A DNA stretch of 21,552 nucleotides from positions 1 through 21,552 of the IMG/VR virus record IMGVR_UViG_3300017765_000085. One strand, given 5' to 3'. The notes under the pieces are model-generated. The model did not search any database, had not been told where the DNA came from, and worked only from the letters and a program-made list of their open reading frames with translations. Below, piece after piece: positions 208 to 11,500 of the stretch. The stretch's first letter is position 1. Each line of letters opens with the position of its first letter. The position numbers were made by a program, and so were the translations under genes. This DNA comes from a virus.

Positions 208-3200
208 TTAGGTATCCCAACGAAGTATGAAAGTAGTGTCAGTTTCGTCTGATGTTCTTATAGGCTGTCCTAATTTACCAACTACTAATAATTCATTGTC
301 TTCATTGTATAAACCAATTGTTGTAACATAAGGTTTAAAGAGTGAACCTGTTGCAAAATCAGCTAAATCCTGTGATTGAAGTGATTTTATCTTTCTTGCA
401 GAAATGTTCATTGTGTCATTAAATTCATCTTCTTGAACAGTACATTGATATTCATGTTCATAAATTAAATGTGAACCTTGAAATTGTAATTTTTTAAGTT
501 CTGATACATTTATAACTGAAATACTATTTGGGAAATTTCTTGAAAATTCCGCATTTACAAGGATTGCTTCTACGTAAAGGTTTACAATAGAATCATTTGC
601 AGTAAATGTTACGGAACTATTAGATGTTTGTACACCTGTAGACACATAACTATTTGCTAGTGTATCTTCACTAACATGAAATTTCCAAGATCCTCCATTT
701 AAATCCCATTCGATTTTATAAGTGTCTCCTGCTGTGAGGTTAGATAGTGTTTGTAATAATGTTGGGTTAACAGCTGTGTTGGCATTATTTCCATCCATAC
801 TAAGAATAAAATTACTAAATAAATTACTACTAAATGTATTTTGTATTTCGTGTCCAGTATTAACGTTAACATTAAGATCATCTAACTCCCAATTAGCCAA
901 AGATTCTTTCATGGATACTGATTCTATTGTTATTGATCTGTTATTAGGTAAAAATGATACAACTTGTAAATCTTTACCAGTAGCAGCTATACCTGCTTTA
1001 AAAGTAAAATAAAAGGTTGTAGGGGAGGAAATATTTTGTCCTGAAGATATTATTGTTATTATACTCCCAAGACTAGTAGAAGGGCTTACAATAACATTTG
1101 ATAGATTTTTTAAAGATATATTTCCTGATGATCCATCTGTAGCTGCTACTACAATTTTTATTGTATAAATTTTACCATCTACTAGACCTAAATCTGGTTG
1201 TTTTACCGCTACATTCGCCCCCGCTCCTGTATTATTTGTAAATTTAAATTGTCCCCCTGGAAGATACTCAAAATCACAACCATTTAATATAAATGGAAAA
1301 ATATCAGCCCCACTATCATCTGTTAGTTTTACTTCTTTTTTAATGGATATGTCCGACATGGTTCCTACAACAGGATTTGTTCCATCATACTCAACATAAA
1401 TGCTGGGTTGTGTACTATTAGTATGGTCAGAGATAAAAGTTCCTGTGTAAGTTCCGTCTGCAAAGTTTTGATAACTATTTGCACCCCCTCCAAGAAGTCC
1501 TACTTTATCAGTAAAACCACTAAGTGTATAACTAAATGTGTATGTTTCTCCATCTTCTAAATCGTTTGAGGTTATGCTTTGAATATAATCAGCATTACCT
1601 GCATCATAACCAGTAAAAGTGACAGAAGTTGCACTGTTGATTGTCGTAAAAGGAGCTAAGGCAGCTTGAATAAAAATAGGATCTGTAAGATCTACTTCTT
1701 CAGGACCTGGAGGAAATAAAAGAGATCCAGAAGTTAATAATTCTGGGGTACCAAAGGTTTCTACAAAATTTCCATTTATTACTTCATTAGAATCTACAGA
1801 ATCAGCTCCCCCAAGTAATATATTATTATATTTAGGGTGTGTAATAGTTGCAAACCCATTTTGGTAAAACATATTGCCTATGTAAGGTGAACCATTTACA
1901 CTTTCAGATATATTTGTAACTGTAGTAGCATTAAATGCTTCCTCAAATATATTAATATTTCCTAACTTTCCATTAAAATAACGGAAATCAGAAATATTAG
2001 TTGATTCTGTTTCACTAAGTATTCCTTTTGAACCTATATAAATATTAGCATTATTTTGTGTTTGCTTAATTGTAGCGTCTGCTGAGGATGTTATTAAATT
2101 ACCATTAAAATAAATTTCCATATTAGATCCTGACTTTTGACATAAAACATGAGCATTATTATTTAATGCAAAATCGTCAGATCCTGTTATTAGTATGTTT
2201 AAAGAAGATACTATATCTCCGTCTGATCTATCAAAGTATAATGATTGACTAACCATATAAATTTCGAAAGGAAATTGTGGCTGAGCCATAACATCTTTAA
2301 ACTGGGATGATCCTTTTACTTTAGTGTCTAATAATTGTGCTTGTCCTTCAATTACAGATGGAATTATTGTTTTTGTGGTACTTTTAGAAATTATGTGACG
2401 TTGTTTATTGTCTAATGTTTCTTCAATACTAAATTTTCTAACTGGCCATATTATGTAACTATTAATAGAGAAATCATTAATATTAATATTAGAAGGAACA
2501 TGTTGTCTTTCTCCTGGTGTAGATGTCCAATTAGGAGATTGGAGGGATATAAAAGGACTCACTCCTAATATAGAATCTGTGTCAGTTGTATGATTATTAC
2601 TTAAGGGTACTTTCCAACTAGTAGGTTGAGTTGTTGTTTGTAATATTGAATTATCTCCTAAAAGAAGAGGGTAAATTCCTAAAAGATCTTCTTTTTCTTC
2701 TATGTCTGATACAGTACCAGCATTAATTGTAGGAAATGAGCCTCTTTCTGTGTAAAGGGATTCTATTATTTCTTCCCACTCATCATAATTAGGTATCCAC
2801 CACCCGCCAAAACCATTATAATTAAAGTCTAATGCTGCTTGTACTATAGGAAATAAGGGGGTATTTGTAGTTATATAACCTTCTGCCGTTTTCCAAGCTA
2901 ATGTGTTTGTTTCTCCTCCTCCTATATCACGAAATTCAAGTGAAGATGTAGTTGTTCCCATTACGTAATTTGGGCTTCCTGCTGAACCACCATCAGAAAT
3001 AGTAGGTATAAGATTTGTGTAATTTGTGTTGTCAGTTCCTGGTATAGAAGCTGCTGGTATATTATTATGTGTAGACCAATTATTTTCTGATTGTGGCGTA
3101 CTTGGTCTTATTATAGGTTCGTCTGCTACAACATACGCATAACCACCACTCACATGAAAAACATATCCTCCTTCTACATAATCTCCTACTTCAGGTGTTG

Positions 3201-4050
3201 AAATGGTTTGTGGAACAACATTAAAAGATATAGCGAAATCTTCATCTTGGTTAAGATCAAATTTTTCATTGTCAGGAGATATTATATTAGAACCTAAATT
3301 TGCATTGAAATGTATGTTTGTAAAATAACTGTCAGTAAGACTTATTGAAGAAGTAGTAAAAGTAACATTATTATATTTTATAGGGTTAAAAAAGTAACTA
3401 TCATCATATTCTCCCTGATCTGGAGAACTATAAGTGTCAATAAGATTAACTCTGGGTTCACCATCTCTCCAAAAAACACCATTTGTATTACCATCATTTT
3501 CAAAAGGAATAGCATATCCCTCAAATGTATTTAAATCATAATTTCTAAATCCTTTAATAGGATCTATTTTTAAAATATTTGAACGAACATCTGTAGGGTA
3601 ATTATCTACATTTGTTCCACTAATTATAAGATTACCATTTAAATCATCTACTACTTCATACCCTAAAAAATTAAGATAAAAAGAACCTGGTTTTACTTCA
3701 AAACCATATAAACCCGCAGGTATAGATAATATATTAGCTCTTTCATATAATTCTCTTTTTTGGTTTAAATAATGTGTGTTACCAAATTTATTATTTATAT
3801 TTTTTTTATAATTTTTATAAAATAAATGGTCTAATTGAAAGTATTTTACAGCATTAATATTGTCTACAGGTAAACCATAACTTACAGTACTACCACTACT
3901 ATAAATGTCAATTGATTCTGAAGTCCAACTTGAAGTTAAAAATGTTATTTGATTAGTAGCTGCTTGATCTTGGTTAAAATCATATTGCTTATGAGCATTG
4001 AAGGGGACTATCGCAAAGTCCTGAGCAGTAAACTTTTTATAAATTGACAT
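208..4050 (-). CDS. Large modular tail/adsorption protein: LamG with nested DUF1566/Lcl-like domain, CBM-like repeats
   Basis: This 1280-aa protein is a probable surface- or receptor-binding component. Residues 1-225 are scaffold. A LamG-type sandwich begins at about 264 (DFAISFNVVP), is broken at about 286, and resumes at about 545 (NKQRHIISK, then FEIYMVSQSLYFDRSDG, HVLCQKSGSNMEIYFNG, NIYIGSKG) to about 705. The insert (about 286-541) runs from YVEGGYVFHVSGGYAYVVAD through FGGWWIPNYDEWEEI to SYIIWPVRK, the pattern of DUF1566/Lcl C-terminal (C-type-lectin-like) domains. Residues about 757-1185 hold about three divergent CBM4_9-like beta-sandwiches, each with a DGxxYxF/I-type strand and the first two closing on an ISIKKE-like strand. 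The last 40 residues form the same YVTTIGLYNE module as the 348-aa protein. Its substrate is unknown. The downstream gene begins 24 bases after its TAA. Confidence 0.9.
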   Translation of the reverse strand: MSIYKKFTAQDFAIVPFNAHKQYDFNQDQAATNQITFLTSSWTSESIDIYSSGSTVSYGLPVDNINAVKYFQLDHLFYKNYKKNINNKFGNTHYLNQKRELYERANILSIPAGLYGFEVKPGSFYLNFLGYEVVDDLNGNLIISGTNVDNYPTDVRSNILKIDPIKGFRNYDLNTFEGYAIPFENDGNTNGVFWRDGEPRVNLIDTYSSPDQGEYDDSYFFNPIKYNNVTFTTSSISLTDSYFTNIHFNANLGSNIISPDNEKFDLNQDEDFAISFNVVPQTISTPEVGDYVEGGYVFHVSGGYAYVVADEPIIRPSTPQSENNWSTHNNIPAASIPGTDNTNYTNLIPTISDGGSAGSPNYVMGTTTSSLEFRDIGGGETNTLAWKTAEGYITTNTPLFPIVQAALDFNYNGFGGWWIPNYDEWEEIIESLYTERGSFPTINAGTVSDIEEKEDLLGIYPLLLGDNSILQTTTQPTSWKVPLSNNHTTDTDSILGVSPFISLQSPNWTSTPGERQHVPSNININDFSINSYIIWPVRKFSIEETLDNKQRHIISKSTTKTIIPSVIEGQAQLLDTKVKGSSQFKDVMAQPQFPFEIYMVSQSLYFDRSDGDIVSSLNILITGSDDFALNNNAHVLCQKSGSNMEIYFNGNLITSSADATIKQTQNNANIYIGSKGILSETESTNISDFRYFNGKLGNINIFEEAFNATTVTNISESVNGSPYIGNMFYQNGFATITHPKYNNILLGGADSVDSNEVINGNFVETFGTPELLTSGSLLFPPGPEEVDLTDPIFIQAALAPFTTINSATSVTFTGYDAGNADYIQSITSNDLEDGETYTFSYTLSGFTDKVGLLGGGANSYQNFADGTYTGTFISDHTNSTQPSIYVEYDGTNPVVGTMSDISIKKEVKLTDDSGADIFPFILNGCDFEYLPGGQFKFTNNTGAGANVAVKQPDLGLVDGKIYTIKIVVAATDGSSGNISLKNLSNVIVSPSTSLGSIITIISSGQNISSPTTFYFTFKAGIAATGKDLQVVSFLPNNRSITIESVSMKESLANWELDDLNVNVNTGHEIQNTFSSNLFSNFILSMDGNNANTAVNPTLLQTLSNLTAGDTYKIEWDLNGGSWKFHVSEDTLANSYVSTGVQTSNSSVTFTANDSIVNLYVEAILVNAEFSRNFPNSISVINVSELKKLQFQGSHLIYEHEYQCTVQEDEFNDTMNISARKIKSLQSQDLADFATGSLFKPYVTTIGLYNEDNELLVVGKLGQPIRTSDETDTTFILRWDT

Positions 4051-4063
4051 TCAAATAACATTT

Positions 4064-5110
4064 TTAATAATCTAATTTTACTCTAATAAGTGCTTCTTTT
4101 GTAAAGTCTTTGTTAACTGGTTGGCTTAATTTTGCTACTGCTACCATATCTCCTTCTTCATTATATAATCCAACTGTTGTAATATATACTTGAGGATTAT
4201 CTATCATAGAAGTAAAGTTAAGATTTCCATTTTCATCTTGAAAAGAAGGATTAGTAGTATAATTGTATTCGTTATTTTTGGCTCTTGTAAAATAATATTG
4301 AGAAGTTACTTTTTCTTCACTGTCTAATATAAAATGTCCAACAGTATTTGATACTGCTTTTTTAATGTGGTTAAATAATTTTTGGTGGTTTCTATCTGAG
4401 TTTGTAGAAAGACCACTATTTCTAGCTGGAGCTAAACCACCACCAAGATTATCAGGGTTTAAAATTATAATTCCAGAATCAGGATAAAAGAAACCATATG
4501 AAGAGCTATTTGCTACTTGGTTTATGTTTGAACCTGAGATTATACCATTAGAACCAGATACTAAATTAAATTGTCTTCCTAAATTTGTAATTACTGCTGA
4601 ACCAGTAGAAGAAACACTATCATCTGTTAGTTTTAGGGGATAAGTTCCTCCTATATCAGAAGCAGAAAGATGTAGATTAAGAGTTCCTGCTTTCAAAGAA
4701 TGCTTAAATCTACTTCTATTTACATTAATAACATAAATATCATCGGGAGTGTGAGTACTAAATGTAAAATTTTGCGTTTCATCACCGAATACTAATTGTC
4801 TATATTGATTATATACTGCTCTAGAAGCACCTATACCAAATGATCCTGTGTCATTTGTAAAATCAGGAGATCCTGATCCTACTCTATTACCATAAGCTAC
4901 AGCATACTGAATTTCTGCTGTTGCTGATGATGATATTTCTTGAAATATGTCTAAATAAAAGTTTCCTGAACTTGTAGGTGAACTAAAAACAGCTTGTGTT
5001 GAAGATGTAAAGGCTGTGGTAAGATTATTTGTATTATTAGTCCATGTAGATGTTATTATCTTATCCGTACTAATAACTACATCTCCTTCTGTGTATTGTG
5101 TAAGTGCCAT
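4064..5110 (-). CDS. Structural protein sharing a C-terminal module with the 1280-aa protein
   Basis: This 348-aa protein is rich in Ser, Thr, Asn and Gly and is predicted to be mostly beta. The N-terminus (MALTQYTEGDVVISTDKIIT) and the segment FTFSTHTPDDIYVINVNRSR look like a structural family I have seen in marine phages. The last 40 residues (309-348), starting YITTVGLYNEEGDMVAVAKL, align without gaps to the last 40 residues of the downstream 1280-aa protein with 14 identities. The shared module, including GLYNE and a conserved QP, probably docks both proteins to the same site or to each other. The leader is an A/T-only stretch with no Shine-Dalgarno. A peripheral baseplate or tail-fibre connector role is inference. 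Confidence 0.87.
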   Translation of the reverse strand: MALTQYTEGDVVISTDKIITSTWTNNTNNLTTAFTSSTQAVFSSPTSSGNFYLDIFQEISSSATAEIQYAVAYGNRVGSGSPDFTNDTGSFGIGASRAVYNQYRQLVFGDETQNFTFSTHTPDDIYVINVNRSRFKHSLKAGTLNLHLSASDIGGTYPLKLTDDSVSSTGSAVITNLGRQFNLVSGSNGIISGSNINQVANSSSYGFFYPDSGIIILNPDNLGGGLAPARNSGLSTNSDRNHQKLFNHIKKAVSNTVGHFILDSEEKVTSQYYFTRAKNNEYNYTTNPSFQDENGNLNFTSMIDNPQVYITTVGLYNEEGDMVAVAKLSQPVNKDFTKEALIRVKLDY

Positions 5111-8510: not shown

Positions 8511-11500
8511 TTAGAAACTATCAACTGGGTTATAATTTTCGCCAAAACTTTCTCCTGGTAATTCATAATCACGATGATACCTACGAGACCTTTTTGCAAC
8601 ATTAACATTTCCTAAAAGAATATCTGAATCTCTAAAGTTAGCGTCTGTAGATACTGTTTTTTGGCCTAATAATTCTTCTCTTATAGATATATCACTAATT
8701 GTTCCCCCAACCCCGTCTCCAGCAAATATTCTTATATCATCCCCATCAGATGTGAATGTAAATTCTATAGTACCATTATTTGTTAATCTAGATATCCCAA
8801 TAGTTCCGGGGGGTCCTCCTTGAGAAGAAAAACCAAGTGAACTTGAAACTGAATCAGAATCTGAATATCCTGATATTTTAGCAAATGCTTTGTATACTTT
8901 TGAGGAAGACAAATTTACTGCTATTGGGTCAACATAATCTGTTCCTGAGGAATTTGGAAATAATACTTCATTTGAAGAAATTATAGTTGCTCCTCCTTGT
9001 ATAGTTGTTGCAAGTGATGTGTTTGCTATGTTTGTTCCATAAGTTACCTGATTAAAACTGTTGAAAGGTCTTATGGGACCTTGTGCTGCTAATTGTGTTT
9101 CATCTAATATGAAACTATTTATATTAATAGTAACATTAGTTCCTTGTTCTTGTCTTTGTCCATCACTACCTGTAGCATTAGTAAGATTGTTTGTTGTTAT
9201 AACGCTTGAACCCGTTAATGAAAGAGATCTTTCTGGATCTATTTTAAAGTCAAATGTTTGGTAAGATCCTTGAGTCATAGTTGTACCATAATCTACTATT
9301 GGTAATTCTCTTGGAAATTTACTTCTTTCTAAATAACTAGGTTCAATTAATAAACCTGTTTTTAAATTAGCTTTCATTGGTACCCATTGTTCTATTATTT
9401 TAAACAATGTGTGATCTATATATTGAATTAATTTTATATAATCAAAAGAATTATATCTGTTGCTTTTATATCTTTTAAAATATAAATCTCTAATTTCTTT
9501 TAAGTCTTCATAATTTGAAGCTGTTTGTGCTGAAGGTAGAGGTGAACCTATATAATCATCTAATCTGAATGCTCCTAATTGATAAACTATATCTTCATTT
9601 ATTTCTGTTGTTGGAGAAAAGAATACACCTAAATCTTCAAAATCTTGTGGTTGTCTGTCTAATGTGGAAGTTTCTGATTTTATTGTAGTTGATAAAAGAT
9701 CATCATCGATAGTTCCTTCATCTATTCTGACTTTTTCACTTGTCATTGAAATACCAACAGTATCAGGAGTTGGATGATAATGGTTTTCTACTACTTCTTC
9801 CCACTTTTGAGTAGACATATTACTTTTTAAACCATTTGATACTTTTTTTAGAGAAATATTATCTACATAATACGTCCTATCAAGCCCCCCATCTGTGGAG
9901 TGGGCATTTCCATGGAGAATTCTTAATGTTGGGTTAGAATCATCTGTATATTCAAAAGTTGCTTTTGAAGTAACCCATTCATTTTCTACTAAATTATCAT
10001 AAAGAATAAAACTTGGGAATGCAGAGGAAGTCGATTGAAATCCTATCATTTGAACTTGATTTCTTGCAGAAGTATAACCTGGTGTATTATCAACAAACAC
10101 ATCCCAAGATACTTCATATAATTGTCCAAGTTCAAGGGAAGAAGAATCTATTGCTTGTTTAATACCATCATTATTTGAAGTTGTAGTATATTTAAAAGAA
10201 TAAAGACCCCCGTTTGCATAAGTAGATGATTGCCCTACATTGATAGCAGCACTATGAGCTGCCCAACTACCACTACCTTCCATATCACCATTTACAACTA
10301 ATTCAGGATTGCTGTTTATGTTAAAAAAGTTTGCATCTATGTTAGGATGAAAACTTGAACTGTCTTGTTGGTCATTGCTTCCTAAAGGTAATCTTAAAAC
10401 TAAATTTTCAAATGATGATGAAATTGTATTACCTGCATACATGAAAGGTTCAAGTGCATGTTTAGTTAAAGTATCATCTGATAATACTTCTCCTATATGA
10501 TATCTTACTTCTTGTATTGAACCTGAATATTGGTAAGCTTCAAAAGTATTGTAATCTGATCCAGCACTATTAGGTTCTAATCCTCCTATATAAACAAACT
10601 GAAAACCATTGTCTCCTGGTTTATTAGCCCATGTTCCCTCCCAAAAATTAGAAGCTGAAATATTAGCTGAAGCTTCGTATTTTAATATATTTTTATTAAA
10701 ATTAGCTTGTCTAGCTCCTATAGATAAAGAAGCTGTTTCTATTGTTCCTAAATATTTTGCTGATAAATTAATATTCCAAAAATCACCATTATATATGGGA
10801 AAATAATCTGTTGAGCATCTTGTTGTAGTATCTACTATTAATTTTAATCTACCATATTGTGTTGCATCGCCTGATGAGGATATGTCGTTAGCTGTAGAAC
10901 TATATGGTTCTAGTGTTACTATATGATCTTTACCTGAATCATAAACACCACTTAAAGTAGAACCAGATAATGTCAATAATATTTGTGTGTTATTCGTTCT
11001 GTGGGGTTTTGCTCTAAATTGTATAGTAGATCCTATTAAATTTTCTTCTAAAGAAAGAACAGTTTCTACAGTAGGGCTACTGAGCCCATTAAAGTTTTTA
11101 TTAGGATCTGAAAATCTAGTTTTTACAAAATAACCATTTGCTCCTGAGTCTCCTTGTAATGCTAATCCTGATTTTTCATAGGTAAATGTTTGGTATGTTG
11201 TTTTATCTGATGTGGATCCTCCATATTCTTTCACGTTTAATAATGTAGAAGGAATTCCATAACAACTCATTAAAGCACGTAATCCTCTTTCTGTTCCTTT
11301 TGTTTTTAAAAGGTGAGGAGCATTATGATATAAACGTTTCCATATTTCTTTTGATATATCTTTTTTAGCCACAGAACCTGCATTTGAAGCTGTTACTAAG
11401 GTTTGGTTTGTAGGTACATCATAATATGCACTACCTGAAGTACCTGTTCCTAAAATATATTCTATTAAGTTTGAATTTTCAAATTGATCAAAAGCTTCTA

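Follow-up and report, generated by a model that had tools for sequence, protein, structure and literature searches.

A Lcl/DUF1566-like domain nested in the LamG jelly roll of a phage tail protein: a probable second, exchangeable adhesin head

Introduction

Why are the first strands of a LamG domain separated from the remaining strands by about 262 residues in a large phage tail protein? The question is raised by a gene for an adhesin-like protein of 1280 amino acids (aa) in the IMG/VR virus record IMGVR_UViG_3300017765_000085. The record is a single metagenomic fragment of 21,552 bases, all of which was analyzed and is called the window here, and its source is a marine bacterial virus with a contractile tail. 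An earlier note, made from the letters of the window, had proposed that LamG is interrupted by a different domain of the Lcl/DUF1566 type. The interruption is borne out by structure comparison and by relatives in which the site is empty, and a Lcl/DUF1566-like domain does lie in a LamG surface loop; that reading overlooked further levels of nesting and the presence of an unrelated domain in the same loop of some relatives.

We consider the protein to be a tail or baseplate adhesin in which LamG would be the first head and the Lcl-like domain in its loop the second, the latter being exchanged by recombination. Reasoning in part by analogy with known tail proteins, we give this a probability of roughly 0.75.

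The split LamG jelly roll

The three parts of the region are as follows.

3202..3375, minus strand: LamG N-terminal flank, aa 226-283, ending in DFAISFNVVP; confidently predicted strands that, together with the C-terminal flank, make up a single jelly roll
2416..3201, minus strand: nested Lcl/DUF1566-like insert, aa ~284-545 (~262 aa), with the motifs EGGYVFH, GGWWIPNYDEW and WPVRK along it; missing in 42 of 72 relatives, with Lcl_C matches and a fold match through the relative L007
1897..2415, minus strand: LamG C-terminal flank, aa 546-718; Laminin_G_3 above the cut-off at aa 602-711, structural Z scores of 18-20

All of the motifs quoted in the earlier note are present, and the positions that it cited (2026-3261) correspond to aa 264-675, the gene being on the minus strand. 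Pfam Laminin_G_3 matches the protein with 33.6 bits against a cut-off of 27.6, at aa 602-711 only, which covers positions 54-150 of the 151 in the profile; the 61 aa of the N-terminal flank, taken by themselves, match nothing in Pfam. Joining the flanks hardly raises the score (36.6 versus 36.2 bits) and leaves the first strands unmatched by Pfam, so that this comparison is uninformative. A profile built from relatives with an empty site (A3) matches the start of a jelly roll in 6hox through its positions 19-67 (E 0.0039).

The region from aa 226 to 748 was modeled with AlphaFold2 from 52 sequences, namely the window protein and 51 relatives taken from 73 distinct regions, the largest and the doubly nested ones being among those excluded. 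The mean predicted local distance difference test score (pLDDT) is 62.9 and the predicted template modeling score (pTM) is 0.54. Most of the LamG strands on either side of the insert are predicted with confidence, in blocks with a pLDDT of about 74-96, and in this model both flanks form one LamG/ConA-like jelly roll of ~185 residues. Alignments that span model residues 1-495 place 172-191 residues on contiguous jelly rolls of ~190 residues (root-mean-square deviation 2.2-3.0, Z 18-20), and Foldseek of the same model gives E values down to 2e-7. The best structural matches come from the binding regions of clostridial neurotoxins, namely from their ConA-like domains. These are fold neighbors only, and no functional kinship with the neurotoxins is claimed, as only the ConA-like jelly roll is shared. 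The protein is thus like the LamG/ConA-like family (PF13385) in its jelly-roll fold and in a score above the Pfam cut-off, and unlike the norm of that family in that, within the window lineage, a complete second domain divides it into two parts.

Empty and filled loops among relatives

Relatives, referred to by locus labels such as L007, were collected in three scans: the whole protein yielded 32 loci, an alignment of the LamG region had 149 confirmed loci, of which the best 80 were used, and a second type of guest domain yielded 11. Among them are 72 distinct proteins, window included, that have both flanks; 11 truncated relatives that lack the N-terminal flank and Microcystis phage Mel-JY01, which was aligned separately, are excluded. 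The counts below describe the relatives nearest the window (the best 80 of 149, plus the loci of the other two scans) and not the whole population.

Relatives with an uninterrupted LamG were found, as 42 of the 72 proteins have 1-29 residues where the window protein has ~262 (the loop of L069 is 1 residue, a value of 90 being an artefact of local alignment). All eight of the empty-site relatives that were scanned match Laminin_G_3 at E <= 1, with a best E of 4.2e-15. A Lcl-like insert lies at the same point in 24 of the 72, with a length of 187-273 aa except in L039 and L041 (449) and in L017 (about 696). The remaining six (L079, L082 and L179-L182) carry an unrelated domain of ~130-135 aa in the same loop, to which parts of further large proteins of phages (L183, L184 and L187) are similar. 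The three states suggest that the loop is a plug-in site for swapping a part that probably grips the host.

A tree of the flanks only, with 65 rows (40 empty, 23 Lcl-like and 2 with the other domain), requires at least two changes for the Lcl-like state and one for the other domain, all of which are forced by well-supported branches; there were thus at least three events at one loop. The Lcl-like insert is probably derived because the outer lineages are empty, and, as far as the flank tree goes, a pair of gains would fit as well as a gain followed by a loss. No direct repeats were found as an insertion scar, and scans of viral contigs with the insert alone returned 4 and 5 loci, all of them known relatives or overlapping these, with no other context.

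Several loops have features of their own. In the LamG loops of L020 and L023 (26-29 residues) there is a short motif, IG-x-x-F-V-V/I-G, which the same LamG has again in a different loop. In L075, a CBM-like stretch (carbohydrate-binding module, CBM) at aa 222-362 directly precedes a LamG whose loop is empty and marks a further insertion point. The insert of L017 (aa 306-1003, about 697 aa) is Lcl-like at both ends with ~450 extra residues within.

Identity of the nested insert

The kinship of the insert with Lcl/DUF1566 is real but remote. The search with the insert alone that the earlier note had proposed recovers this remote kinship through Pfam Lcl_C; profile searches against PDB sequences gave no meaningful match. 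The window insert by itself scores 13.0 bits (E 0.13) against a cut-off of 34.9. Lcl_C appears at E <= 1 in 17 of 18 family inserts, the best with 1.5e-4, and when ten inserts were scored singly nine matched at 15.1-22.5 bits, none reaching 34.9. The window-type and other inserts make up one family (hhalign 98.4%, single-comparison E 7.8e-15). Among the matches listed in a genome scan, the nearest cellular relatives of the insert are from Bacteroidota in 62 of 80, and eight of the nine cellular relatives scanned match Lcl_C at E <= 0.1, one of them above the cut-off.

The insert of L007 was modeled as the representative (pLDDT 62.7, pTM 0.68). First among its matches comes 8q4e, the C-terminal domain of Legionella Lcl (Lcl-CTD), with a Foldseek E of 3.8e-3, a probability of 1.00, a Z score of 8.8 and 123 of 131 residues aligned. 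The second is a fimbrial protein of B. ovatus, 4eps (Z 8.5), and the next is a C-type lectin (Z 4.2); the Lcl-CTD is itself described as C-type-lectin-like in PMC11162425. Given the sub-threshold Pfam scores and the kinship in fold and profile, the insert is named Lcl/DUF1566-like and not a Pfam member. The L007 insert is like the Lcl-CTD and DUF1566 (PF07603) in its fold and in a GG-x-V-F, DWW-P-x-x-E and PVR core. The domain is at the C-terminus in Legionella Lcl according to PMC11162425, whereas here it is internal to another domain and below the Pfam cut-off, and the collagen-like stalk of Legionella Lcl is not seen here.

Further levels of nesting

The remaining parts of the protein are as follows.

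208..4050, minus strand: whole adhesin-like tail protein, 1280 aa, an open reading frame whose N- and C-terminal parts are common to the proteins of Flavobacterium phage immuto (357 aa) and of Mel-JY01
3376..4050, minus strand: N-terminal scaffold, aa 1-225; aa 1-201 align with residues 1-218 of the immuto protein (E 1.8e-6)
1816..1896, minus strand: scaffold segment YIGNMFYQNGFATITHP, aa 719-745, kept in relatives, including immuto (IGNVIYPHG)
499..1815, minus strand: second optional insertion, aa 746-1184, delimited by comparing lengths among relatives; absent or 5-30 aa in many and up to ~1100 aa in others
1339..1584, minus strand: CBM-like module, aa 823-904; blastp E 1.4e-6 to L041 and a weak CBM_4_9 match
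208..498, minus strand: C-terminal scaffold domain, aa 1185-1280 (~96 aa), 44% identical to immuto and 48% to Mel-JY01

The immuto orthologue is without LamG and aligns with aa 1-201 and 1188-1279. Mel-JY01, on which a literature search found no publication, has a full-length orthologue (25.7% over 100% of L018) in which LamG has an empty loop; relative to this arrangement, the window protein has the Lcl-like domain added. In L039 and L041, from two metagenomes, an extra CBM-like module of ~130 aa lies inside the Lcl-like insert, and L042 is without it. This nested module belongs to the family of the one that the window protein has at aa ~823-904 (E 1.4e-6 for L041). Profile comparison, and not Pfam, links the L039/L041/L042 insert with the window type (86.9%, E 4.2e-6). 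We tentatively propose, at somewhat below even odds, that the LamG loop is a general plug-in port, that its guests have ports of their own, and that LamG itself was added to a smaller scaffold, giving nested adhesins in which the exchange of cassettes changes the host.

At the second site, after LamG, L008, L053, L083 and L094 have insertions of 280-580 aa with repeated DGT(K)(M/L)Y-type motifs that are beta-propeller-like. The two that were scanned (L008 and L094) had no convincing match in Pfam.

Variation between close pairs

The near-identical pair L003/L004 has 53 differences among the 810 nucleotides of the insert and 13 among the ~2980 outside it (Fisher p 9e-25). The synonymous divergence (dS) is also higher in the insert (0.086 versus 0.012 outside), and the nonsynonymous divergence is raised too. 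The 53 changes (C/T 13, A/T 11, A/G 10, A/C 10, C/G 7 and G/T 2) are even over codon positions and scattered, with a small in-frame indel in addition. This concentration of differences in the insert, with no adenine bias, makes recombination or selection likelier than a retroelement. The insert is also far more different than the N-terminal part in L008/L009 and in L011/L014. Judged from these sequences, the close pairs read as modular exchange by recombination, the insert being one of several units that would be exchanged.

The tail block of the fragment

The tail block is on the minus strand and encodes an amidase-bearing protein, homologues of the gp25 and gp6 baseplate wedge proteins, and large structural proteins. 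The 1280-aa gene (208-4050) is the final gene of this block in the fragment. The gp6 homologue is closest to those of Mel-JY01 (48%) and of the Flavobacterium immuto phages (46%), and in immuto the orthologue of the 1280-aa protein immediately precedes genes annotated as tail fiber and tail spike. PADLOC found nothing, and Pfam and PHROGs scans of the 1280-aa protein gave no match suggesting Dit.

The C-terminal end of the neighboring 348-aa protein (4064-5110) resembles that of the 1280-aa protein (208-498), with 54% over 24 aa; when traced through the Mel-JY01 and immuto proteins the resemblance is 80-110 aa long, and the two neighbors may share an attachment domain. Additionally, a 1487-aa protein of the window has a CBM-like module at aa 1315-1431 (8682-9032) that is related to the second-site module of L078 (E 7e-12), from which such modules appear to move between different structural genes.

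Proposed function and alternative explanations

In the proposed mechanism, the scaffold, made up of ~225 aa at the N-terminus and ~96 aa at the C-terminus, would anchor the protein to the tail or baseplate, and the jelly roll between these two parts would be the first binding head. The Lcl/DUF1566-like domain, in the surface loop between the ...F-ISF- strand and the RYIISK strand, would be the second. Both may bind glycans or polymers on the surface of the host bacterium, which might give the protein the two specificities that the earlier note had proposed. The loop probably tolerates insertion because the two ends of an incoming domain are close together. Recombination with related phages would allow a phage to acquire, lose or swap the insert, and such a swap would alter adsorption with the scaffold undisturbed.

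Several results weigh against this proposal. The N-terminal LamG strands are invisible to Pfam even with the flanks joined, and NCBIfam and PHROGs have no match for the 1280-aa protein. Every insert with a score shown falls under the Lcl_C cut-off, and that of L015 has no Lcl_C match. The Foldseek E to 8q4e is above 0.001 and was obtained with a model of L007, not of the window, at a mean pLDDT of 62.7; the window insert is itself poorly modeled, with long stretches at a pLDDT <50. Among the close pairs, L009 and L010 have an identical insert and differ at the second site, and in L013/L014 the N-terminal part is the most different. Finally, we infer the binding of glycans or polymers by both heads from analogy.

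The main rival accepts the nesting and assigns the insert a mainly structural role, in which it would trimerise like the Lcl-CTD and stabilize or space the adhesin. Besides binding glycosaminoglycans or other polymers, Lcl domains also trimerise. We regard this role as unlikely, since 42 of the 72 relatives are without the insert and since, in one near-identical pair, no other part diverges as fast, a pattern not usually expected of a mere spacer. That same variability, with the insert as the most variable part in L003/L004, could instead be taken as the mark of a diversity-generating retroelement (DGR), and phage DGRs that target DUF1566 domains are known (PMC8143477). This explanation is disfavored and very improbable: the changes are not restricted to adenine, are scattered and even over codon positions, and come with a raised dS and an in-frame indel, and no match to the reverse transcriptase family RVT_1 was obtained in 5 related contigs, each of which may be a fragment. 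The window being a single 21.5-kb metagenomic fragment, an assembly chimera was considered as well, as was a single continuous, unfamiliar fold with no nested domain. Both are already contradicted and scarcely credible, as the same insert is present at the same point in 24 distinct proteins and missing in 42, and the flanks make one jelly roll.

Comparison with known systems

The nearest tested precedent for a nested insert of the proposed kind is the evolved Dit (evoDit) of lactococcal skunaviruses and further siphophages, a conserved tail-tip protein into which carbohydrate-binding modules are inserted. According to PMC10688798 and PMC6669499, classical (empty) and evolved (filled) forms coexist with many groups of inserts, and the insert promotes the adsorption of skunaviruses to hosts that bear exopolysaccharide. 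The likeness is that a module is inserted in a conserved tail protein and that empty forms coexist, with binding by the module putative in our case. The carrier there is Dit, whereas the carrier here is a LamG jelly roll, and the tail protein to which it belongs, from a phage with a contractile tail, is not known to be Dit; the evoDit insert is a BppA-like CBM, whereas here it is Lcl/DUF1566-like and itself carries a further module in two relatives. By this analogy, LamG and the Lcl-like domain may be two heads that bind the host surface, the second of them optional.

The DUF1566/Fib_succ_major targets of DGRs in Bacuni phages likewise place a DUF1566-type putative host-binding domain on a phage, and in PMC8143477 these proteins were modeled on the fimbrial tip bacova_04982, which is 4eps, the second fold match of the L007 insert. 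The variable repeat described there is at the 3' end and is changed by an adenine-directed retroelement, whereas here the domain is internal and the changes are not adenine-directed. Among the papers listed in literature searches, none on a LamG with a nested DUF1566 domain was found.

For most marine phages, to our knowledge, host range has yet to be determined. The conserved loop described here occurs empty or with either of two kinds of guest, and in one close pair the guest accounts for most of the differences. These forms make up a natural series in which to ask what part of an adhesin determines the range of hosts. The loop would extend the evolved-Dit principle to another fold, another group of phages and several levels of nesting.
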